In this document: in pieces, positions 5,385-45,550 of the stretch
Layout of the letters: each line of letters starts with the position of its first letter
How positions within the stretch are numbered: position 1 is the first letter of the stretch
Origin: Deltaproteobacteria bacterium
GTDB taxonomy: Bacteria; Desulfobacterota; Dissulfuribacteria; Dissulfuribacterales; UBA3076
Assembly: GCA_018399745.1 (NCBI GenBank)
Contig: JAGYNZ010000004.1
Span: 1-64,000, forward strand
DNA: 64,000 bases
Direction of reading: 5' to 3'
Translations under genes and position numbers: made by a program
Notes under the pieces: model-generated
Told to the model about the DNA's origin: nothing
Seen by the model: only the letters and a program-made list of their open reading frames with translations
Databases searched by the model: none

Positions 5385-6581
5385 ATGAAGGTGTGTGAAA
5401 TAAAAAAAGACATATACTGGGTGGGGGCCGTAGACTGGAGCAGGCGGGACTTCCACGGCTATTCAACTGACAAGGGCAGTACTTACAACGCCTTTCTGGT
5501 CATAGATGACAAGATCACTCTGTTTGATACCGTCAGGAGTGAGTTCAGGAGTGACCTGCTGCATAATATCAGGAATATAATTGATCCCTCAAAAATTGAT
5601 TACATGGTGGTAAATCATGTTGAGATGGATCACACTGGTTCATTGCCTGACGTCCTGGAGGCAGTGAGGCCGGAAAAGCTGTTTTGTTCCGCCATGGGCA
5701 AAAAGGCGCTCCTGGACCATTTTCACCGGCCGGATTGGCCCTATGAAGTGGCAGCTCCGGGTGATACCCTGAGCCTGGGCAGGAGGTCTGTAAAGTTTAT
5801 TGAGACCAGGATGCTTCACTGGCCGGACAGTATGTTTTCATATATACCAGAGGAAAAATTGCTCATATCCAGTGATGGATTTGGCCAGCACTGGGCCACC
5901 AGTGAAAGGTTCGACGATGAAGTGGATCTTTCCGAGCTGATGTCGCATGCGGCGAAGTATTATGCCAACATACTCCTTCTCTTTTCTCCGCTGGTGAGAA
6001 AGCTCCTGGAAAGGCTTAAAGAACTCGGTATTGAAATCGATATGATCGCCCCTGACCATGGACTTATCTGGCGCTCCCATGTCAAGGACATCCTTGAGGC
6101 TTACGGAGACTGGGCCCACCACAGAAGCAGGAAGAAGGCACTGGTGATCTATGACACCATGTGGCACAGTACGGAGACCATGGCCAGGGCGGTGGGGAGC
6201 GGCATAGAACAGCAGGGGGTGAGCATAAAGCTGATGGACCTCAAGGTCAACCACCGCAGTGATGTCATTGCCGAGGCGCTTGACAGCAGAGGGCTGGTAT
6301 TCGGCTCGCCTACACTGAACAACGGCATACTTCCCAGAATGGCGGCACTGCTCTCCTACATGAAGGGTCTGAAACCCAGAGAAAAGATAGGCGCTGCATA
6401 CGGGTCTTATGGATGGAGCGGTGAAGCGGTAAAAATCATGAATAATTACATGAAAGAAATGGATTTTGACGTGGTTGAACCGGGTATAAGGGTGAAATAT
6501 GTACCCACCCATGATCACCTCAAGGAGTGTGTGGAGATGGGTAAAAGAATAGGCCTGGCAATAAACAGGACAGGGGATTGA
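5385..6581 (+). CDS. Flavodiiron protein (rubredoxin-dependent O2/NO reductase)
   Basis: The 398-residue protein has an N-terminal metallo-beta-lactamase-like domain (about 1-250) and a C-terminal flavodoxin domain (about 253-395) with the FMN loop (VIYDTMWHSTETMA). All diiron ligands are visible: H78-x-E80-x-D82-H83, H145, D164 and H225. The class reduces O2 to water or NO to N2O in the cytoplasm using electrons from rubredoxin, encoded just upstream. In anaerobes this protects oxygen- and NO-sensitive enzymes. No extra C-terminal rubredoxin or reductase domain is fused, so it is a class A protein. The neighbouring octahaem cytochrome suggests it may clear NO made during nitrogen-oxide metabolism; that link is inference. 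Confidence 0.93.
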   Translation: MKVCEIKKDIYWVGAVDWSRRDFHGYSTDKGSTYNAFLVIDDKITLFDTVRSEFRSDLLHNIRNIIDPSKIDYMVVNHVEMDHTGSLPDVLEAVRPEKLFCSAMGKKALLDHFHRPDWPYEVAAPGDTLSLGRRSVKFIETRMLHWPDSMFSYIPEEKLLISSDGFGQHWATSERFDDEVDLSELMSHAAKYYANILLLFSPLVRKLLERLKELGIEIDMIAPDHGLIWRSHVKDILEAYGDWAHHRSRKKALVIYDTMWHSTETMARAVGSGIEQQGVSIKLMDLKVNHRSDVIAEALDSRGLVFGSPTLNNGILPRMAALLSYMKGLKPREKIGAAYGSYGWSGEAVKIMNNYMKEMDFDVVEPGIRVKYVPTHDHLKECVEMGKRIGLAINRTGD

Positions 6582-14637: not shown

Positions 14638-16425
14638 ATGAAAGAATTTTTTTTGTTGGCGGGGGTTGTTGGACTTTATGTATTTACGGCCTTTACACTG
14701 GTTAATGCCGGTGAAATGGGCGACGGTGAAGCACTTTATATGAAAAACTGCAAAATGTGTCACAAGTTGAAGACGGATGGGATGGCTTCTTCCCTCGAGA
14801 CCATGGCCAGGAAATATCAGAACAATAGCTCAGGCATTGTAGACTTTCTGAATAATCCTACGGGGAAAGGGGCCAGAATGATGAAAAAATTCATTACCGG
14901 TCTGTCCCCACAGGAAAAAGAGGCTATTGCCTCCTGGATGACAGCTCAAGGACAAGGACAGGGACAAGATCAGGCCAAGACAAAAGAAAATACTGCCCCT
15001 GCTCCTGTCAGTGGAGATACCGAGGCATGCCTGGGGTGTCATGAATCCGTTACCCCTGGTATTGTGGAAGACTGGCGCACTAGCAGGCACGCCCATACAA
15101 GTCCTGAAATGGCCCTTAAAAAGCCGGCTGTAGAGAGAAGGATTTCATTCGAGAGCATTGACAGGGGACTTAAATCTTCCGCAGTAGGCTGCTACGAATG
15201 CCACAGCCTGAATCCCAAGCTTCATTCAGACAACTTTGAGCATAACGGGTACCAGATTAATGTAGTGGTTAGTCCCAATGACTGTAAGACCTGTCATCCG
15301 GTTGAAAACAGGCAATACGCTCAAAACATAATGTCGCACGCCTATGGAAATCTTAACAATAACCCTGTTTATCGTGATCTGGTAGACTCGGTGAACGGCA
15401 TTCAGTCTTTTAAGGATATGAAGACAGCCCTGACAGCCCCGGACGCGGAAACTGATGCTGATTCCTGCTTTTACTGCCATGGGACCTTAGTTAAGGTCAA
15501 GGGTATGCAGACCAGAGATACAGTAATGGGTGGTATGGGATTTCCTGTCCTTTCAGGCTGGCCCAATTCGGGTGTGGGAAGACTCAATCCTGATGGTACC
15601 ATGGGATCATGTACTTCCTGTCATACCAGACATGCATTTTCTATTGAGATGGCCAGAAAACCTGCTACCTGCTCTGAATGCCACAAGGGACCTGATGTCC
15701 CGGCATACAAGGTTTATGAGGTCAGTAAGCACGGAAATATTTACTCCTCGCTGAATAAAAAATGGGATTTCAACTCAGTTCCCTGGACAGTGGGAAGAGA
15801 TTTCACGGCCCCGACCTGTGCCACCTGTCATGCCAGTTTAATCGTCACTGGTGAGGGTGAAATAGTCGCAGAAAGGAGCCACCAGATGAGTGATCGAAGC
15901 GCATGGAGACTTTTTGGAATTTATGCCCATGCCCATCCAAAGTCCCCGGATACAACAATTATCAGAAACAATGCCGGTTTGCCTTTGCCGACTGAACTCA
16001 CAGGAGAGCCGGCAACAGACTATCTTATTGATGCCAGTGAGCAGGAAAAGAGGCGCGGGAATATGCAGAGGATATGCCTCACATGCCATAGCGATGGATG
16101 GGTAAAGGGGCAATACGCCAGATATGAGAATACCATCAATACTACCAATCAGTCTACTCTGACTGCTACCAAGATTCTTCTTACTGCCTGGGATAAAGGG
16201 GCAGCCAAAGGTCTGGCACAGAATGACAGCATTTTCAATGAGGCGATAGAAAAGAAGTGGGCAGAACATTGGCTCTTTTTTGCCAATTCTACCCGTTTTG
16301 CCTCTGCGATGGCAGGGGCCGACTACGGTGTCTTCGCTAATGGTCGATGGTATTCGTCAAAAAATATTCAGGAGATGCTTGACTGGCTGGAATTTAAGCT
16401 CGAGAGTAAAAGCCAAGAAAATTAA
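14638..16425 (+). CDS. Nine-haem c-type cytochrome: cytochrome c domain fused to an HAO-like octahaem domain
   Basis: The 595-residue exported protein has a signal peptide (1-24, ending near VNAG), a small class I cytochrome c domain (about 25-105; C38-x2-C41-H42 with distal methionines near M80-82), a G-Q-rich linker (about 108-125), and a domain with eight further CxxCH sites, including CLGCH, CYECH, CKTCH, CFYCH, CTSCH, CSECH, CATCH and CLTCH. The haem spacing and the CTSCHTRHAFS segment are those of the HAO superfamily. The N-terminal domain probably acts as an internal electron shuttle. GAGGAGG precedes the start. A c554-like cytochrome gene follows 154 bases later, which mirrors HAO-c554 pairing. 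Hydroxylamine, hydrazine or nitrite turnover is possible; sulfur compounds cannot be excluded. Confidence 0.85.
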   Translation: MKEFFLLAGVVGLYVFTAFTLVNAGEMGDGEALYMKNCKMCHKLKTDGMASSLETMARKYQNNSSGIVDFLNNPTGKGARMMKKFITGLSPQEKEAIASWMTAQGQGQGQDQAKTKENTAPAPVSGDTEACLGCHESVTPGIVEDWRTSRHAHTSPEMALKKPAVERRISFESIDRGLKSSAVGCYECHSLNPKLHSDNFEHNGYQINVVVSPNDCKTCHPVENRQYAQNIMSHAYGNLNNNPVYRDLVDSVNGIQSFKDMKTALTAPDAETDADSCFYCHGTLVKVKGMQTRDTVMGGMGFPVLSGWPNSGVGRLNPDGTMGSCTSCHTRHAFSIEMARKPATCSECHKGPDVPAYKVYEVSKHGNIYSSLNKKWDFNSVPWTVGRDFTAPTCATCHASLIVTGEGEIVAERSHQMSDRSAWRLFGIYAHAHPKSPDTTIIRNNAGLPLPTELTGEPATDYLIDASEQEKRRGNMQRICLTCHSDGWVKGQYARYENTINTTNQSTLTATKILLTAWDKGAAKGLAQNDSIFNEAIEKKWAEHWLFFANSTRFASAMAGADYGVFANGRWYSSKNIQEMLDWLEFKLESKSQEN

Positions 16426-16579: not shown

Positions 16580-17923
16580 ATGAAAAATCTAAGGGCATGT
16601 TTCATTATGACGTTGATCTTATTAATTTCCCCGTTCCTGGTTTACAGTGCCGAAATGGGCAAGTTCTCATATGGGGATTTTGAACAGCCCAAGAGATGCG
16701 GAATGTGTCACAAAGAGATTCATCAGGAATGGCAGCAGAGCCTGATGTCACAGAGTTTTACCCATGAATGGGATCAGGTTGAGTATTTCAAACTGGCCCT
16801 TCCTCACGCCCTGAAGTTACAAAAGGTCTCAGGGATAAAAGGGGGCTGTATTGCCTGTCATGGCCCCCTTGCCTTTTTGAGTGGGGATATTCCTCCAAAG
16901 CCGGCTGAAGCCGGTACCCGGGCCAATGAAGGCGTGAGTTGCGAGATCTGCCACAACATTATCGGAACGACTGAGGAAGTCCCTTTTAATTTCAGCTTTA
17001 TCATCGAGCCGGACAAAGTGAAACAGGGGCCGAGGGGCGACGCAAAGTCCCCTGCCCATGATGTGAAATATTCCGAGTTTACCATAAGTCCGGAGCTCTG
17101 TGCCACCTGTCATGACGAGCAGAGCCCTTATGGGGCCTGGGTCAAGACCACTTACAGAGAATGGAAGGCCAGTCCCCACGCCAATGGCGGCAAGAGGTGC
17201 CAGGATTGCCACATGTATCACGCACCAGGCAAGTCCGCCTTTGGTGGAAAAGAAAGGGCAGATATGGCCCATCACAACTTCCATGGTTCCCACTTCCCCA
17301 GCAAGCTTGCTGGTACGGTCGATCTGGCCCTTTATACTAAAAACAAGGAAATCACTCCTGGTTCAAAACTGGAACTGCGGGCAGAACTCTTTAATGGTAA
17401 GGCCGGGCATTATATACCGTCAGGTTCCACGGAAGAGCGCATGTTATGGATGGAGGTCTGGGCCATTGACGCCATGGGCAAGCATTATCCTATACCCGTA
17501 GATCCCAAGGGCTTTCATGGAGAGGAATATACTATTGCCGATCCTAAGGCCATGGCATATCAGGCCATGGGAGAGATCATGGAAATCAAGGACTTCAAAG
17601 GATTAAAACGAGACGGCAATGTCCAGGAGGGTGCCCGAATCTTCCGAAGACCTTTCCTGGATCCCAAGGGACGCATGACTATCTGCCAATGGTACACCGA
17701 GAACAACACCCTGGTTGATTACAGGATCGGTCCCATGGAGACCAAGATCGAGAATTACACATGGTCTGTACCGGCAGAGGTCGCTTCAGGGCAATTGACC
17801 ATTAAAGCCAGTCTTTTTTTCAGCCAGGTCCCCAGCTCTGTGGGTGAGTTTCTTGAATTGCCGGCGTTTGAGTATGAGCCGATTCCGGTTAATACCGCAA
17901 CGTTAATACTGGAGGCCAGATAA
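16580..17923 (+). CDS. Five-haem cytochrome c554-like protein with C-terminal beta domain
   Basis: The 447-residue exported protein has a signal peptide (1-23, ending near VYSAE). Five CxxCH sites (CGMCH, CIACH, CEICH, CATCH, CQDCH) lie in the N-terminal 220 residues, with nearby histidines (HANGGKRCQDCHMYH) as distal ligands. The layout is that of the cytochrome c554 family. The remaining 220 residues lack haem sites and look like beta-sandwich domains. Family members receive electrons from HAO-like enzymes in the periplasm. The gene follows the nine-haem HAO-like cytochrome with GGAGG before its start. The pair probably forms one periplasmic electron-transfer route. Confidence 0.82.
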   Translation: MKNLRACFIMTLILLISPFLVYSAEMGKFSYGDFEQPKRCGMCHKEIHQEWQQSLMSQSFTHEWDQVEYFKLALPHALKLQKVSGIKGGCIACHGPLAFLSGDIPPKPAEAGTRANEGVSCEICHNIIGTTEEVPFNFSFIIEPDKVKQGPRGDAKSPAHDVKYSEFTISPELCATCHDEQSPYGAWVKTTYREWKASPHANGGKRCQDCHMYHAPGKSAFGGKERADMAHHNFHGSHFPSKLAGTVDLALYTKNKEITPGSKLELRAELFNGKAGHYIPSGSTEERMLWMEVWAIDAMGKHYPIPVDPKGFHGEEYTIADPKAMAYQAMGEIMEIKDFKGLKRDGNVQEGARIFRRPFLDPKGRMTICQWYTENNTLVDYRIGPMETKIENYTWSVPAEVASGQLTIKASLFFSQVPSSVGEFLELPAFEYEPIPVNTATLILEAR

Positions 17924-20953: not shown

Positions 20954-21709
20954 ATGCTACAAATCGAAGACTTGCAGGTTAAACTAGGCGACAAAGAGAT
21001 CCTGAGACATATCGACCTGGAAATTCTTCCGGGAGAAATTCACATTCTATTTGGTCCGAATGGATCAGGCAAGACATCTTTACTAATGACTATTATGGGC
21101 TACCCACAATACCGGGTCACCGGCGGAAAGATCCTCTTTAAAGGACAGGACATTACTCATATGTCGGTTAATGAACGGGCGCGACTCGGCATCGGGATGT
21201 CCTATCAGCGGCCACCTACCATTCACGGGGTGAAGACAAGGCAGATGATTGAAATCTGCGCGAAAGAAAAGATTGATGTGGATGCACTTGCAAAAAAGGT
21301 GAATTTTTCTGAGTTTCTGAAGCGTGACGTCAACGAAGGCTTCTCGGGCGGCGAGATCAAGCGCTCGGAGCTTTTGCAGTTGATGGCCCAGGATGCAGAC
21401 CTGTTTCTCTTTGATGAACCAGAATCTGGTGTGGATTTGGAGAATATATCACTTATAGGAAACATAATCAGCGAGTTGCTTCAACGGGACTTCAGGGTGG
21501 AATCAAAAAAGACACAGAAGGAGCGGCACAAGGAACGGACCAAGATGGGCCTGATTATTACGCATACCGGGTTCATACTGGATTATGTAACAGCGGATAA
21601 GGGACAGGTACTATTTGATGGATCGCTGACATGCACGACCAATCCCAGGGAAATATTCAGGTGTATCAGCAGGGTCGGATATGAGGAGTGTATAAGATGC
21701 GCGACTTGA
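20954..21709 (+). CDS. sufC: Fe-S cluster assembly ATPase SufC
   Basis: The 251-residue ABC ATPase has Walker A GPNGSGKTS (near 33-41), the Q-loop SYQRPPT, the signature GFSGGEIKRSELLQ and Walker B DLFLFDEPESGVD. The ISGVD-type sequence after Walker B and the length are typical of SufC. It energises the SufB(D) scaffold in the cytoplasm. A basic insert (VESKKTQKERHKERTK, near 180-195) before the H-loop is unusual for bacterial SufC and occurs more in archaeal-type pairs. The sufB start lies 13 bases inside this gene, showing translational coupling. No sufD, sufS, sufU or sufE lies nearby, matching minimal SufCB (SMS-type) systems. Confidence 0.92.
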   Translation: MLQIEDLQVKLGDKEILRHIDLEILPGEIHILFGPNGSGKTSLLMTIMGYPQYRVTGGKILFKGQDITHMSVNERARLGIGMSYQRPPTIHGVKTRQMIEICAKEKIDVDALAKKVNFSEFLKRDVNEGFSGGEIKRSELLQLMAQDADLFLFDEPESGVDLENISLIGNIISELLQRDFRVESKKTQKERHKERTKMGLIITHTGFILDYVTADKGQVLFDGSLTCTTNPREIFRCISRVGYEECIRCAT

Positions 21710-22911
21710 ATGAAAGAGCACTTCGTGCCAAGGATAAAACCTCAAATCTTGGACTGGACATAGACCTCGATACATACGGGTCGGAACCTGTTTCCCATAG
21801 CTATGTAGAGGATCTAGATGCCCTGTCCGAGGCCGATAAAGAGAGAATGATCATGGCTGGAATAGATGCTGAAGAGACCGAGAGGTCCGGCACCTACGTT
21901 CAGAAAGATGCTTCGGTGATTTATTCCCGTTCCAGGCAGGAAGGGATAGAGGTTATACCAATCATAGAAGCGCTTAAAAAATATGAGTGGGTCCAGGATT
22001 ATTACTGGAAGCTGGTGCCTGTGGACACTGACAAGTACACAGCGCGAACCCAGCTTGACTTGCATAACGGTTATGTCATAAGGGCCCTTCCGGGCAGCAA
22101 GGTCGTCTATCCTGTCCAGGCGTGCATGTATATGGAAAGGGAAGGTCTGAGCCAGAACGTCCATAACATAATTATTGCTGAAGAAGGATCTGAGCTCCAT
22201 ATCATCACGGGTTGTGCTACTGCCGCCCATTTGCAAAGCGGACTTCATGTCGGGGTCTCTGAGTTTTATGTCAAAAAAAATGCCAGGCTCAGCTTCACCA
22301 TGATTCACTATTGGGCTGAAGAGATGATGGTAAGAACCAGGTCAGCTGGAATTGTAGAGGAGGGCGGTCTATTTCTTAACAATTATATTTGTATGAAACC
22401 AGTCAGGTCACTCCAGATGTATCCCACTACCCACCTGGTTGGGAAAGGGGCTGTTGCCCGCTTTTACAGCCTTCTTGTCGGAAGTCCTGAATCTCAAATG
22501 GACATAGGTGGCCGCATTTACCTAAAGGAGCCGGATACGCGGGCTGAAATCATTTCCCGTGCCATTACCAACGGCGGAAATATTATTGCCCGCGGGGACC
22601 TGATAGGTGAAGTGCCTGGAGTGAAGGCCCATCTGGAGTGCCAGGGTCTTATCCTTAATGGTGGATCGATCCATGCCATACCTGAGCTGGAGGGCATGAT
22701 AGACGGGGTGGAGATGTCTCACGAGGCAGCAGTGGGCAAGATAGCTCAGGACGAGATCCTGTATCTTATGTCCCGTGGTCTGAGTGAAGATGAAGCCAGT
22801 GCTACCATTGTAAGGGGGTTTTTAAGTGTAGACATTCCGGGCCTGCCTCCCCAGCTCAAGGCAGAGATCGATCGTGCTGTGGAACAGAGTGATAAAGATA
22901 TGTCGATGTAG
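21697..22911 (+). CDS. sufB: Fe-S cluster scaffold SufB/SufD-family protein
   Basis: The 404-residue protein belongs to the SufB/SufD family. Its core is the parallel beta-helix (about 130-350), and the C-terminal motif GGSIHAIPELEG...VEMSHEAAVGKIAQDEILYLMSRGL is typical. I place the start at ATG 21697 because GAGGAG ends eight bases before it. It is shorter than classical SufB and stands alone with sufC, as in the minimal pair of archaea and many anaerobes, where it forms a homodimer. It builds Fe-S clusters needed by the many iron-sulfur and redox proteins encoded around it. Confidence 0.9.
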   Translation: MRDLNERALRAKDKTSNLGLDIDLDTYGSEPVSHSYVEDLDALSEADKERMIMAGIDAEETERSGTYVQKDASVIYSRSRQEGIEVIPIIEALKKYEWVQDYYWKLVPVDTDKYTARTQLDLHNGYVIRALPGSKVVYPVQACMYMEREGLSQNVHNIIIAEEGSELHIITGCATAAHLQSGLHVGVSEFYVKKNARLSFTMIHYWAEEMMVRTRSAGIVEEGGLFLNNYICMKPVRSLQMYPTTHLVGKGAVARFYSLLVGSPESQMDIGGRIYLKEPDTRAEIISRAITNGGNIIARGDLIGEVPGVKAHLECQGLILNGGSIHAIPELEGMIDGVEMSHEAAVGKIAQDEILYLMSRGLSEDEASATIVRGFLSVDIPGLPPQLKAEIDRAVEQSDKDMSM

Positions 22912-22987: not shown

Positions 22988-23200
22988 TGTTACGCTTTGC
23001 CGCAGGCTTATGATCCCACAAAATGGGAAGAGGCTATGAAGACGTCCCGTGAATGGGGAGACAAGATCCCCCTGGGCATTATTTACCGGAATGAACGGTT
23101 GCCTTTTGAAGAGCACTTTTCCGTCCTGAATCAAGGGCCTCTGGTAGGGAGGGATGTAGACCGTGTAATGCTCAAGAGTATCATGGAAGGTTTTGGATAG
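22988..23200 (+). pseudogene. C-terminal fragment of a 2-oxoacid:ferredoxin oxidoreductase beta subunit
   Basis: After an in-frame TGA (22985-22987) about 70 codons read PQAYDPTKWEEAMKTSREWG then D-K-I-P-L-G-I-I-Y-R-N-E-R. This is the well-known C-terminal end of thiamine-pyrophosphate-binding beta subunits of 2-oxoacid (for example 2-oxoglutarate or pyruvate) ferredoxin oxidoreductases. The catalytic thiamine domain is missing and only SufB precedes it, so this is a remnant of a deleted gene. A TTG at 22997 could start a short peptide but has no ribosome site. Confidence 0.7.
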
Positions 23201-23255
23201 TTTTCAGTTGATCGAAGATTTAATCCAATCGGTTCATATTATAGAGAGGTACATC

Positions 23256-24293
23256 ATGTCAGACAACGGAAGTGGAATGAATCGCAGACATTTTATTAAG
23301 CTGGCGGCAATCGCTGCCGGTGGTGCTGGTTTTACAGGAGGATTGTCCTTTGCCCAAGAACCACAGACCGGCCAGGAGCCTGATAGCCCAGTCTATTTGG
23401 CATTGAATATGTCGAAAGTGGTCAACAGCGAAGAGAGTTTCAGGCTGATGAAAAAGGTTGGGCCAAGGGTCTGTATAACGACGGCTACACACCCCGGGTT
23501 TGTAGGATTTCAGGCCAATATTCAGACCGGAATTCTGCCTCTGGCCGGTCGATACGGTGGGGGAAAGGTGCATATGGAAACGGAATTGAACCCCGTACGT
23601 AATTACCAGTATACAATGTGGAAGAAATGGCAAGACCACGACGACTTTCATCTAAAACAGTTTGACAGGACCTTTGAATTGTGCGGAAGTTGTATGTCCA
23701 TGATCATCGAGGGTCCATGGGAGCCTGTTTACAGGGTGGTAAAGGCCAAGATGCCCCCCATAAGATCCATGGGCCAGATTTCCGATCTTGGCATCGATAT
23801 GAAGGAAGGAAAGGAATTTATTCGTTTTGCCACACCTGCGCGCTGTGTAGCCCTGGCCGAGCATACGGTCAAGCCCGGGAGGGAAAAGGCCTTTGAGCAG
23901 GGAGCCATAGCCACCATGGAGGCCTTGTCTGATTCGACGGGTTTTTTAGGATACATGATCCTTAAACAGATGGGTGTCTGCGCTTTAGGGAGTTTCATGA
24001 TGGACCCTAAATCCATGGTACAATCTTTACAGACTCTGGGGGCAAATCCACCGAAAGATCCCAAACCTTTGTTTGAAACGCCTGAGGCAACGCCAAGCCC
24101 TCCGGAATATCTCATTCACAGCGAATGGGATGCAGCAGAAATGGCACAGCTAGGTTTTGCCAAGGTATTGGTCAATCACAGGATTATAAAGATTCATGAT
24201 GACGGTGTTATGGCACATCTAATTAGAGGCCCTTATATAATGTTTTTCCAGCCCATGATGGAAGAGCCTGGCTGGAGAACCATGCTGACCTAG
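23256..24293 (+). CDS. sor: Sulfur oxygenase reductase with twin-arginine signal peptide
   Basis: The 345-residue protein matches archaeal sulfur oxygenase reductase (SOR), which disproportionates elemental sulfur with O2 to sulfite, thiosulfate and sulfide. The catalytic residues known from Acidianus ambivalens (C31, H86, H90, C101, C104, E114) reappear at a constant offset of 42: C73 (RVCITTATHPGFVGF), H128 and H132 (DHDDFH), C143 and C146 (CGSC) and E156 (GPWEP). Known SORs are cytoplasmic. This one has 42 extra N-terminal residues with a Tat signal (NRRHFIKLAA followed by A-I-A-A-G-G-A-G-F and cleavage near SFAQ). I chose ATG 23256, six bases after AGAGAGG; an ATG at 23193 would bury the signal. 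The mature enzyme is probably periplasmic. Confidence 0.92.
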   Translation: MSDNGSGMNRRHFIKLAAIAAGGAGFTGGLSFAQEPQTGQEPDSPVYLALNMSKVVNSEESFRLMKKVGPRVCITTATHPGFVGFQANIQTGILPLAGRYGGGKVHMETELNPVRNYQYTMWKKWQDHDDFHLKQFDRTFELCGSCMSMIIEGPWEPVYRVVKAKMPPIRSMGQISDLGIDMKEGKEFIRFATPARCVALAEHTVKPGREKAFEQGAIATMEALSDSTGFLGYMILKQMGVCALGSFMMDPKSMVQSLQTLGANPPKDPKPLFETPEATPSPPEYLIHSEWDAAEMAQLGFAKVLVNHRIIKIHDDGVMAHLIRGPYIMFFQPMMEEPGWRTMLT

Positions 24294-27232: not shown

Positions 27233-27661
27233 TTGCTCGTAATACATCCGATCATTCAATTATTGGCTGTAATGTTAACACTGTACGTATTCTACCTGGG
27301 GATTCCGCGTTTTCGGTCTCTTCATCTTCATCAAAAGACGCTTTTCAGATGGAAGCGGCATGCACTCTTGGGAAAGATTGCTCTGTTGGCATTGCTGGGC
27401 GGTATGTTGGGGGGCATGACCATGGTATATCTTTACCTGCATGATTTCCTCATAACTGGGGTCCACGGTAAGTTCGCCCTTGTAATGACTCCCTTTATCG
27501 TTTTCGGCGGAATGACAGGTATATACATGGACCGTAACAAGAAGAAGCGAACAGGCCTTGCCATTATTCATGGCTTGAACAATCTCGTTGTTCTGATTTT
27601 CGCCTTGACTCAGGTCGTGACCGGTTGGAGGGTCTATACGCTATTAGTCTTAGGACGCTGA
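27233..27661 (+). CDS. DUF4079 four-helix membrane protein
   Basis: The 142-residue protein has four membrane helices (about 5-22, 43-63, 77-95 and 113-138), with histidines at the helix ends (H5, H42, H76, H120) in positions suited to haem binding. It resembles DUF4079 proteins, which look like small cytochrome b-type membrane proteins. The likely start is TTG 27233, seven bases after AGGGG; no in-frame ATG is nearby. A role in passing electrons between quinones and the periplasmic cytochromes encoded upstream is plausible but unproven. Confidence 0.72.
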   Translation: MLVIHPIIQLLAVMLTLYVFYLGIPRFRSLHLHQKTLFRWKRHALLGKIALLALLGGMLGGMTMVYLYLHDFLITGVHGKFALVMTPFIVFGGMTGIYMDRNKKKRTGLAIIHGLNNLVVLIFALTQVVTGWRVYTLLVLGR

Positions 27662-41389: not shown

Positions 41390-43156
41390 TTATTTCTTGT
41401 CATGACAGAGGTTTACAGGGCCGACTCCTATAGCAACCGAATGTCCCGGTAAAAGAATCGCATCGTCTTCAACCGTAACCCCTTCTTCGGAAGTCAGAAG
41501 GATTTCCTTTTTGCCGGGCTTGAGGCAAGGAATGCGCTGATTTACAGGTGCAAAATTAAAGACCATCCATATACGCCCGCGTGTCATAATCAGCCATCGT
41601 ACCTCTTCGTCAAAATAAACAGCCGTTCGCTCCATGCGCCCGTTATGCAATTCAGGTATCTGTCGGCGCAGCTTGATAAGGGATCGATAAAAATCAAGAA
41701 GTTCATGGTGCGGTGGCATTGCTATCTCGCTCCAATCAAGCCTGGAGCGGAGAAAGGTTTCCTCGTCCTGTGGATCAGGGATTTTATCAGTTTCCCAGCC
41801 AAAGGAGGCGAACTCCTTTTGCCGTCCGGTCTTTACGGCTGCACCCAAACCAGGCTCCTGGTGGTCGGTAAAATAGAGAAAAGGGGTTGAGGCCCCCCAC
41901 TCTTCGCCCTGAAACAGCATCGGAACAAAGGGCGAAGTAAGGACCATGGCCGCCCCCATCTTGAGCTGACCTGGCAGGAGCAAATGGCCTATTCTCTCTC
42001 CCAAGGCACGATTACCCACTTGATCATGGTTTTGCAGGCATCCTATGAATCGATGGCCGGAAAGTCCGGTGGCCGTCCGTCCGTGGTGAGAGCGGCGGTG
42101 CACGGAGTAACAGCCGTCATAAACAAATCCCTGAGTCAGAACCTTGGCGAGATCGGCCAGCTTTCCAAAGTCCCGATAGTATCCAACGTGTTCACCCGTA
42201 AGAACCGTATGCAGGGAGTGATGGAAATCCTCGTTCCATTGGGCATCGATACCGTATCCCCCCACCTCGGGTGTACGAATCACTTGAGGATCATTGAGAT
42301 CACTTTCGGCTATGAGTATAAGGTGGCGACCCAGCTCCGCTTCCAGATCATTGACTTCAGCGGCAAGTTGTTCTAAAAAGTGGATCGCGGAGGTGTCCAC
42401 GATGGCATGAACCGCGTCGATCCGCAGCCCGTCAATGTGGTAGTCCCGCAACCACATCAGGGCGTTATCCACAAAAAAACGCCTCACCGCGTCGCTTTCA
42501 GGTCCGTCCAGATTGACCGCTTCTCCCCAGGGCGTTGCATAGCGGCGGGTGAAATAGGGTCCAAAGCGGCCCAGATAGTTGCCCACAGGTCCTAAGTGGT
42601 TGTAAACCACATCCAGAATCACGGCAAGACCTCTTTCGTGACATGCATTCACCAGACGTTTAAGTCCCTCAGGGCCTCCATAGCCGTGGTGGGGCGCATA
42701 GAGATCGGCACCGTCATAGCCCCACCCGCGGTTGCCGGAAAATTCAGCCACCGGCATGAGTTCCAGATGAGTGACGCCTAGATCTAAGAGATGATCAATA
42801 CGGTCGACGGCAGAATCGAATGTACCATCCGAAGTAAATGTACCCACGTGCATCTCATAGATTATGGCCGATCCCAGCGGGGGCTGCTGCCAGGCCGAAT
42901 CGGTCCAGGTGAAGATTGAATGATCCATATACCTCGACGGGCAATGCAGCCCATACGGTTGCCAGGCAGAACGCGGATCGGGGAATGGGCCTTTACCATC
43001 GATCCTAAACGCGTAATCAACTCCGTTTTGTATAAAATCAGCGTTCACATACCACCAACCTTGCTCGCCCTTGGTCATGCACAAAATCCGATTATTACTA
43101 TCTAATGTCACCTCTTGAGCCTTTGGTGCCCAGACACGTATTTCAGGCATGTCCAT
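41390..43156 (-). CDS. treZ: Malto-oligosyltrehalose trehalohydrolase (TreZ)
   Basis: The 588-residue GH13 enzyme has an N-terminal carbohydrate-binding-like domain ([14 protein letters not shown]; 1-90), a catalytic barrel with [47 protein letters not shown] (nucleophile aspartate), [10 protein letters not shown] (acid/base glutamate) and [12 protein letters not shown] (stabilising aspartate), and a C-terminal beta domain. The TFxxxG-D and GGYG-x-D-A-Q-W-N-E-D-F patterns identify TreZ, which releases trehalose from maltooligosyl trehalose. The partner TreY is not in the window. It overlaps the end of glgX by 14 bases with GAGGATTC before its start. Confidence 0.93.
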
Positions 43157-45247
43157 GAATCCTCAATACCACCAGGGAGCGAGCTTCAACATTTATTTGA
43201 TCTCCCTCCTTAAGTATTTCTTCAACCTCCAGCCATCCGCCTTCGGTATCAAGCTCCTTTATCCAGATCTCACCCCAACTGGTTCCTGGAAGACTAAAGA
43301 CCAGAGGTTCATAATGTGCGTTGATCATTATGTAGAAGTTGTCGTCGGTTACGGGCTCGCCTCTCGGATTTGGATTCGGGATGGTCTTGCCATTCAAAAA
43401 AACGCCCAGCGACTTTGCATATCCTTGTCCCCAGTCCTCCTCGTCCATCTGTTCGCCTTCTATGGTGAACCAGGCAATGTCCTCGATTTCGCTGCCGTGA
43501 ATCGGCCGGCCATGAAACCATCCGCGGCGGTGGAAGACCGGGTGGTCTATTCTATACTGTATGAGTTTTTGGCAAAAAACAAGGAGATATTCATCCACTT
43601 TTTCCCAGTCGTACCAGGAAATCTCATTGTCCTGACAGTAGGCATTATTATTACCTTGCTGGGTGCGGCCGATTTCGTCGCCTCCTAAAAGCATGGGTAC
43701 GCCCTGGGAAAGCAGCAGCGTGGCAAAAAAATTTCGTTTCTGGCGTTTTCTTAACCGGAGTACCTCCGGGTCGTCCGTGGGGCCTTCCACACCGCAGTTC
43801 CACGAACGGTTGCGGATTTCTCCGTCATCGCTTTCCTCTCCGTTTTTGGCGTTGTGCTTTTTATTATAGGAAACCAAATCATTTAAGGTAAACCCATCGT
43901 GCGCAGTGATAAAGTTGATGCTGGCGTAGGGTAGCCGGGAGGTATTTTCGTACAGGTCTGAGCTGCCGGTAAAACGAGTTGCGAATTCGCCCAGGGTCTG
44001 ATTCTCCCCTCGCCAGAAATCCCTTACGCAGTCACGATACTTGCCGTTCCACTCGGTCCACAGGGGAGGAAAATTACCCACCTGATAGCCGCCTTCGCCC
44101 ACATCCCAGGGCTCGGCTATAAGCTTTACCTGACTGACTACCGGGTCCTGCTGGATGATGTCAAAAAAGGCCGACAGGCGGTTTACATCGTGCAGTTCGC
44201 GAGCCAAGGTGGATGCCAGATCAAAACGGAATCCGTCTACATGCATCTCCAGAATCCAGTACCGCAGGGAATCCATTAAAAGCTGCAGTACATGAGGATT
44301 ACGCATGTTTAAACTGTTACCGGTGCCGGTGTAATCCATGTAATATTGAGGATCATCCGCAAGGCGGTAATAATAGGCATTGTCGATCCCTTAAAGCTGA
44401 ACGTCGGCCCGAGGTGATTACCTTCTGCCGTATGATTGTAGACCACGTCCAGGATCACTTCCATGCCGGCCTGGTGCAAGGTCTTGACCATCTGCTTGAA
44501 TTCTACCACTGCACCTGCAGGTCGCTTGTCGGTTGCATATTCGTTTTGCGGAGCGAAATAGCCGATGGAATTGTAGCCCCAGTAGTTTCTCAAACCCTGA
44601 TCCACCAAGTGCTTATCATGGATAAAAAAGTGGACCGGCATCAGTTCAATGGCCGTGATACCGAGCCTTTGCAGGTAATCAATGACTGCCGCCTGCGCCA
44701 GCCCCGCGTACGTGCCTCGCAGTTCCTCAGGTATTTCAGGGTGGCGGGCCGTAATGCCTTTGACATGAGTTTCGTAAATCACGGTTTCGTACCAGGGCAA
44801 TTGCAGACGGCGGTCTCCGCTCCAATCGAAATGGGGCTGGTGAACCACGCCTTTGGGCACAAAGGGTGCGCTGTTGCTGTCATTGAGAGTCCAGGGACCA
44901 CGGTCGAATAGATACGGAAAGACAGCCTCGTTCCATTGGACTTGACCGTCAATGGCTTTGGCATAAGGGTCGAGCAGCAGCTTGGACGGATTACAGCGGT
45001 GACCGCGCGCCGGTTCCCATGGACCATGGACACGGAAACCGTAACGCCGGCCTGGCTCGATGCCGGGCAGGTAACCATGCCAGCAATATCCGGTTACTTC
45101 AGGCAGGTCGATGCACTCCTCGGTTCCTTCTCGGTCAAATAGACAGAGCTCGACGCGTTGGGCGATTTCGGAAAACAAGGAAAAGTTTGTCCCTGAGCCG
45201 TCAAATACGGCTCCCAGCGGATATGGTTGTCCGGGCCACACCTTCAT
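43143..45247 (-). pseudogene. glgX: Glycogen debranching enzyme GlgX, interrupted by one frameshift
   Basis: Two frames together encode a full GlgX of about 700 residues (GH13_11). The first, 45247-44391, holds MKVWPGQPYPLGAVFDGSGT, the CBM48-like domain and [20 protein letters not shown]. The second, from near 44390 to 43143, begins in [10 protein letters not shown] and holds [15 protein letters not shown] (nucleophile), LIAEPWDVG (acid/base) and [12 protein letters not shown]. The reading frame shifts in AAG-GG-ATC at 44388-44392; one extra G would restore G-I-D-N-A. The total of 2,105 bases is one short of a multiple of three. It could be a real mutation or a sequencing slip. GlgX removes alpha-1,6 branches from glycogen and feeds TreZ substrates. 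ATG 45247 is preferred over an upstream TTG. Confidence 0.88.
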
Positions 45248-45550
45248 TTTGATCAATCCCCTTTTATAATGTTCCAGGTTGACTGAAAGTTGCCAAAGAC
45301 CTTTAAAATAAACTGAAATAAACTAAGGATTATGCTATATTTTGTAAAGGCACTAAAAAAACGGTTATTTTGCCTATTGAAGGGCCTGGCTTTTACCTAC
45401 CGCTAGTCGTTTTTAGACTTTGTCACCAGGCGGCTTTTCGCAATTTCGCTCAGGATCGCATGGAAGGCGATCTTTACAGCACCTATTTTTTCAATCTGAG
45501 GGTCTGGAAATATTTGATAAAATTTTTTCACATCGGTCAGTTCATGTGTG

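Follow-up and report, generated by a model that had tools for sequence, protein, structure and literature searches.

The sulfur oxygenase reductase (SOR) of Acidianus ambivalens (PDB 2cb2 and 6qne; UniProt P29082) comes from a thermoacidophilic archaeon, has no signal peptide and is described as cytoplasmic, as SORs generally are. Mutagenesis of SOR identified the iron ligands H86, H90 and E114 together with the cysteine C31 as essential (PMC5023260; PMC7398979), and the enzyme forms a 24-mer of 871 kDa and about 15.5 nm (PMC9529111; PMC7398979). SORs have also been recorded in the Desulfobacterota, a phylum known for sulfate reduction. In a sediment study of metagenome-assembled genomes (MAGs) from the Bohai Sea, 33 of 39 SOR-bearing MAGs belonged to this phylum and the enzyme was called cytoplasmic (PMC12345210), and a groundwater paper on the sulfate reducer Desulfomicrobium considers it unclear what SOR does in strict anaerobes (PMC6137086). 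Here we describe an SOR gene in the window, by which we mean the whole 64,000-nucleotide stretch that was analysed. Its host belongs to the same phylum, but its product carries a predicted twin-arginine (Tat) export signal, whereas these two papers, in their accessible parts, treat SOR as cytoplasmic or without reference to location and mention no such signal. A literature search that reached mostly material outside subscription returned no report of an SOR with an export signal; where the available text of SOR papers mentions signal peptides or twin-arginine motifs, it does so for other proteins. The enzyme, its fold and Tat export are each known, and their combination as a conserved lineage appears to be new.

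The gene, tat-sor (23256..24293, forward strand, as are all features located below), is a stop-free frame encoding an SOR precursor of 345 aa plus stop. Residues 46-341 match the Pfam SOR profile PF07682 at 468.8 bits (cut-off 25) over profile positions 2-300 of 300, which sets the catalytic domain at 23388..24290. Among structures in the PDB, the best match is 6qpa_A at 308 bits, an SOR that lacks the Tat extension and lies on a separate branch of the tree; the match to A. ambivalens SOR, of the same family across the catalytic domain, is about 266 bits (6qne). These matches uphold the family that the first-pass annotation had assigned to the frame. The NCBIfam equivalog NF047630, which covers a narrow SOR group, gives the window protein 306.5 bits against a curated cut-off of 400, so by profile score it is a member of the Pfam SOR family outside the narrow equivalog around the characterised enzymes. 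More distant is the subfamily of PDB 9rdn, represented among our sequences by L037 and L040: it is SOR by sequence and has the same active-site residues, but L037 shows only about 33% identity and has no Tat signal. The genomes of both L037 and L040 encode cytochrome bd and heme-copper oxidases.

By alignment, the window protein has the same iron ligands and essential cysteine as A. ambivalens SOR. The cysteine is C73 (C31 in A. ambivalens, PMC5023260; 23472..23474), and the iron ligands are H128 and H132 (H86 and H90; 23637..23651) and E156 (E114; 23721..23723). C143 and C146 (C101 and C104; 23682..23693) are conserved as well. All six residues fall at a constant offset of +42, as the first-pass annotation had claimed; its description of all six as essential holds for four of them (H86, H90, E114 and C31), whereas C101 and C104 are conserved but outside the published essential set. 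On this alignment the window SOR is predicted to be catalytically complete. An AlphaFold2 model of the protein, built from a shallow alignment, has a mean pLDDT of 45, a confidence too low to position the N-terminus within the oligomer.

Ahead of the catalytic domain, the protein has an extension that reads as a typical Tat signal: MNRRHFIK, then a mildly hydrophobic stretch, then SFA followed by Q. The predicted signal peptide spans residues 1-33 (23256..23354), with cleavage predicted between SFA and QEP, and the twin-arginine motif NRRHFIK occupies residues 9-15 (23280..23300). A short linker, residues 34-44 (23355..23387), leads from the predicted cleavage site to the SOR fold in the alignment. 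Cleavage sites here and in the homologues were placed by eye. The first 34 residues, MSDNGSGMNRRHFIKLAAIAAGGAGFTGGLSFAQ, match the TIGR01409 model (TAT_signal_seq) at 20.9 bits, a modest score above the curated cut-off of 16.7. Shuffling the residues of the 44-aa extension produced an equivalent motif once in 200,000 trials, and tat-sor is the sole one of 129 long frames of the window to contain one. A Shine-Dalgarno (SD)-like GAGGT (23246..23250) stands 5 nt before the ATG.

A scan of genome contigs turned up close SORs across much of the phylum, in many genomes; four of those loci have the extension, as do further genomes identified through whole-genome searches. In total it is present in seven other genomes of the phylum (G398, G308, G678, G429, G634, G268 and G665), although the G268 copy ends at a contig edge and the G665 copy has an internal deletion. 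An extension limited to one genome, or created by an assembly error, is thereby rejected. The motifs of these Tat-SORs are NRRNFMK, NRRNFMR, DRREFVK, DRRQFLK, DRRNFMK, DRRDFMK and, in the window, NRRHFIK, and the pattern RRxF[ILMV][KR] is invariant in all intact Tat homologues. Across the 15 SORs of the set, TIGR01409 matches six, the number of full-length proteins that bear the two arginines. All six full-length Tat-SOR genes, the window gene and five others, have an SD site directly ahead of the extension start, and none of the six offers an SD followed by an ATG where the catalytic domain begins. A chance motif or a misannotated start is rejected on the shuffles, on the distribution of TIGR01409 matches across the SOR set and on the SD sites upstream of the extension.

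The signal and the mature protein have evolved at different rates. Between lineages, identity is 29-55% in the signal (78% in one close pair) and 82-87% in the mature protein (96% in that same pair). The pN/pS ratio likewise differs, at 0.25-0.62 for the signal and 0.05-0.13 for the mature part. Such a contrast is what a functional signal peptide shows, drifting except at key positions, and by these comparisons the Tat-SOR signal is evolving yet constrained. Only two weak columns of the mature domain (124 and 309) separate Tat-SORs from cytoplasmic SORs, so the catalytic domain appears to carry no obvious adaptation to export. The cytoplasmic members of this SOR subfamily (L005, L006, L007, L008, L009, L010 and L011) are 69-80% identical to the window protein over their length, but their frames open directly with the catalytic domain, behind an SD of their own, and lack the extension. 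The host genome encodes three TatC and three TatA/B proteins, and TatA/B was found in all seven Tat-SOR genomes searched. The claim that this is an SOR with a twin-arginine signal thus gained ground. With a match to the curated Tat model, a motif, start codon and SD that independent lineages have all kept, and Tat genes in the host, Tat export of the window SOR is well supported as a prediction.

SOR consumes O2, and the genome around the gene looks like that of an anaerobe. DsrA is present (534 bits), which by itself leaves the direction of sulfur metabolism unsettled, and neither cytochrome bd subunit I (CydA) nor heme-copper oxidase subunit I (COX1) had a match in the 97.5%-complete host genome. 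The window also encodes a flavodiiron-type protein (5385-6581; PF19583 plus flavodoxin domains). By gene content, the host looks like a sulfate-reducing anaerobe that deals with O2 by means other than a respiratory oxidase; given DsrA and no oxidase match, what is probably an anaerobe appears to export an enzyme that depends on O2. Among the SOR genomes compared, searches for a bd or heme-copper oxidase gave a match in one of seven Tat-SOR hosts versus five of seven hosts of non-Tat SORs, a difference that is not significant (Fisher p = 0.10) among genomes that are themselves related. This comparison leaves aside G665, with its deleted Tat-SOR, and G077 and G201, with fragmentary SORs; as the relatives include MAGs, oxidase genes are scored in it as not found rather than absent. 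The contrast is only a lead. Two Tat-SOR hosts do not fit the pattern of DsrA without an oxidase: G308 encodes cytochrome bd, and the search for DsrA in G429 gave no match.

Several neighbours of tat-sor recur near other SOR genes. Upstream lie two multiheme cytochromes c with Sec-like N-termini. The first (14638..16425; 9 CxxCH) has an N-terminal monoheme domain fused to a core of the HAO-type octaheme family, with 399 bits to PDB 4qo5, an entry whose own name is hypothetical multiheme protein; a homologue adjoins the Tat-SOR of G634 (L042). The second (16580..17923; 5 CxxCH) has a 72% identical homologue in the L013 SOR neighbourhood. Downstream are a cytochrome P460-like protein with a Sec-like N-terminus (PF16694; 26617..27096), of which a related fragment occurs near the SOR remnant in L047, and a DUF4079-like membrane protein (27233..27661) common to the SOR neighbourhoods of L013, L014 and L047 (67-71% identity). 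Taken over L042, L013, L014 and L047, homologues of the window's multiheme cytochromes and of its ferritin-like, P460-like and DUF4079 proteins occur near SOR genes or remnants, and some of these neighbours may have been transferred along with SOR. The Tat-SOR of G634 has two proteins with Sec-like N-termini on one side, a multiheme cytochrome and a Tll0287-like protein, and a pair of YeeE/YedE sulfur transporters (PF04143) on the other. A YeeE/YedE gene (PF04143) also adjoins the Tat-SOR in L045, and in G678 one follows it. Because the same pair lies ahead of the cytoplasmic SOR of L006, the association is with SOR generally and not with export. Three further observations concern the window itself. 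Just upstream of tat-sor, the C-terminal end of a gene for a pyruvate/2-oxoacid:ferredoxin oxidoreductase beta chain survives as a remnant at 22991-23200 (PF12367, 45 bits, with a query one residue, D, short). A SufC/SufB-type pair of overlapping genes lies at 20954-22911, its SufB-like protein scoring about equally on SufB and minimal SmsB models. A glycogen-debranching-like gene at 43143-45256 is seemingly split into two overlapping frames, possibly by a frameshift.

The explanation that we consider quite probable overall is that a catalytically complete SOR is made as a precursor, exported by Tat, built into a cage in the periplasm and active there in O2-dependent sulfur disproportionation. 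The precursor would fold in the cytoplasm, probably binding iron, as a monomer or small oligomer, and would cross the inner membrane folded, through Tat. Residues 1-33 would then be removed by a cut after SFA. The SOR 24-mer is larger than any Tat cargo known to us, so the hollow cage would have to form in the periplasm, after export. In the first-pass annotation the enzyme took up its iron and was assembled in the cytoplasm before being exported; the model match, motif, start and Tat genes support the export, but size excludes a pre-assembled 24-mer and leaves a folded monomer or small oligomer. Periplasmic SOR would convert S0 or polysulfide and O2 into sulfite, thiosulfate and sulfide, the first two of which the Dsr pathway could reduce. 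We infer the export itself, the formation of the cage after it and the activity of the enzyme from sequence.

As to what such an enzyme would do, the most likely role, which we put forward tentatively, is consumption of O2 in the periplasm of a sulfate-reducer-like cell, with sulfur as the reductant and products that the Dsr pathway can reduce. The host seemingly lacks respiratory oxidases, and a role in handling O2 is therefore no less likely than the usual aerobic oxidation of sulfur. A broader proposal, which is more speculative, is that in anaerobic bacteria of the Desulfobacterota type SOR has turned into a sulfur-fuelled periplasmic O2 scavenger, its cage lying outside the inner membrane beside multiheme cytochromes, so that O2 would be removed before it reaches the cytoplasm and sulfite and thiosulfate would be returned to the enzymes of sulfate reduction. 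The exported SOR might instead serve to gain sulfur rather than to defend against O2, turning extracellular S0 at oxic-anoxic interfaces into thiosulfate, sulfite and sulfide that YeeE/YedE would import and the cell would use for energy or assimilate. We think this possible, though we would not bet on it. A periplasmic site puts SOR near insoluble sulfur, the host has DsrA, and the YeeE/YedE pair of L042 and the PF04143 gene of L045 stand beside Tat-SORs; against this, the pair also accompanies the cytoplasmic SOR of L006, the window copy has no YeeE/YedE neighbour, and SOR itself conserves no energy (PMC12345210). The missing oxidases lead us to favour O2 removal slightly over a supply of extracellular sulfur.

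A maximum-likelihood tree built on the mature domain unites the Tat-SORs in a single shallow group (88/88, recovered in 90% of bootstrap trees); support in this tree is moderate and certain branches are long. The group is nested among SORs that begin directly at the catalytic domain, and the simplest reading is that a cytoplasmic SOR gained a Tat signal once. On this placement the extension marks a late-arising subclade inside a cytoplasmic SOR group. Within the class to which the window belongs, SOR occurs in just 1 of 46 genomes, and the Tat-SOR hosts are spread over several families, which makes horizontal transfer of Tat-SOR likely; a plasmid origin is rejected, as no plasmid match was found. 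The same rarity in the class could mean that the gene is a recent horizontal acquisition that is unexpressed here or heading for loss, and the oxidoreductase remnant just upstream, like the SOR genes of three related genomes with different internal deletions, would fit. We consider this unlikely, as the window gene is intact and has an SD, and the mature part is strongly constrained (pN/pS about 0.1). The deleted genes belong to a single genus (L036 in G797, L038 in G724, L039/L015 in G665) and show three different internal deletions or fusions that always keep the C-terminal part; in L036 the frame runs ATG-TCA-GAA straight into the residue-192 region. They reflect either repeated gene decay or assembly error, and the genus also holds intact copies in G634 and G678. 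Elsewhere, the single-contig genome G201, which has bd and heme-copper oxidases, carries an SOR remnant (L024; G201:C1:213518-213739) with an in-frame stop and about 71% identity to the window protein.

Could the signal be real but uncleaved or inefficient, with SOR tethered to the inner membrane or mostly kept in the cytoplasm? The cleavage sites were, after all, placed by eye and, as Tat cannot pass a 24-mer, rapid cytoplasmic assembly would be expected to rival export. We find this distinctly unlikely, because in all intact Tat homologues the site combines a small residue at -3 with Ala at -1 and is followed by an acidic or polar linker, and because the motif has long been conserved within otherwise diverged signals. 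That translation starts after the motif and yields an ordinary cytoplasmic SOR, which the first-pass annotation had named among the findings that would overturn it, is scarcely credible: in-frame starts do exist downstream, but the ATG at codon 52 has no SD, the TTG at codon 30 has an AGGAGG only 1 nt ahead, too near to serve it, and all six full-length Tat-SOR genes retain the upstream SD and the arginine-containing frame.

If Tat export and periplasmic assembly are as proposed here, O2-dependent sulfur chemistry would be located in the periplasm of anaerobes. Tat-SOR would then be a candidate enzyme for the O2-driven oxidation of sulfur and sulfide that sulfate reducers have long been observed to carry out (references in PMC13047784), and its lineage would offer a test case for the assembly of a 24-subunit cage enzyme after Tat transport. 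Annotation that presumes SOR to be cytoplasmic would assign Tat-SORs to the wrong compartment, and an exported SOR may help to explain what this enzyme does in anaerobes.
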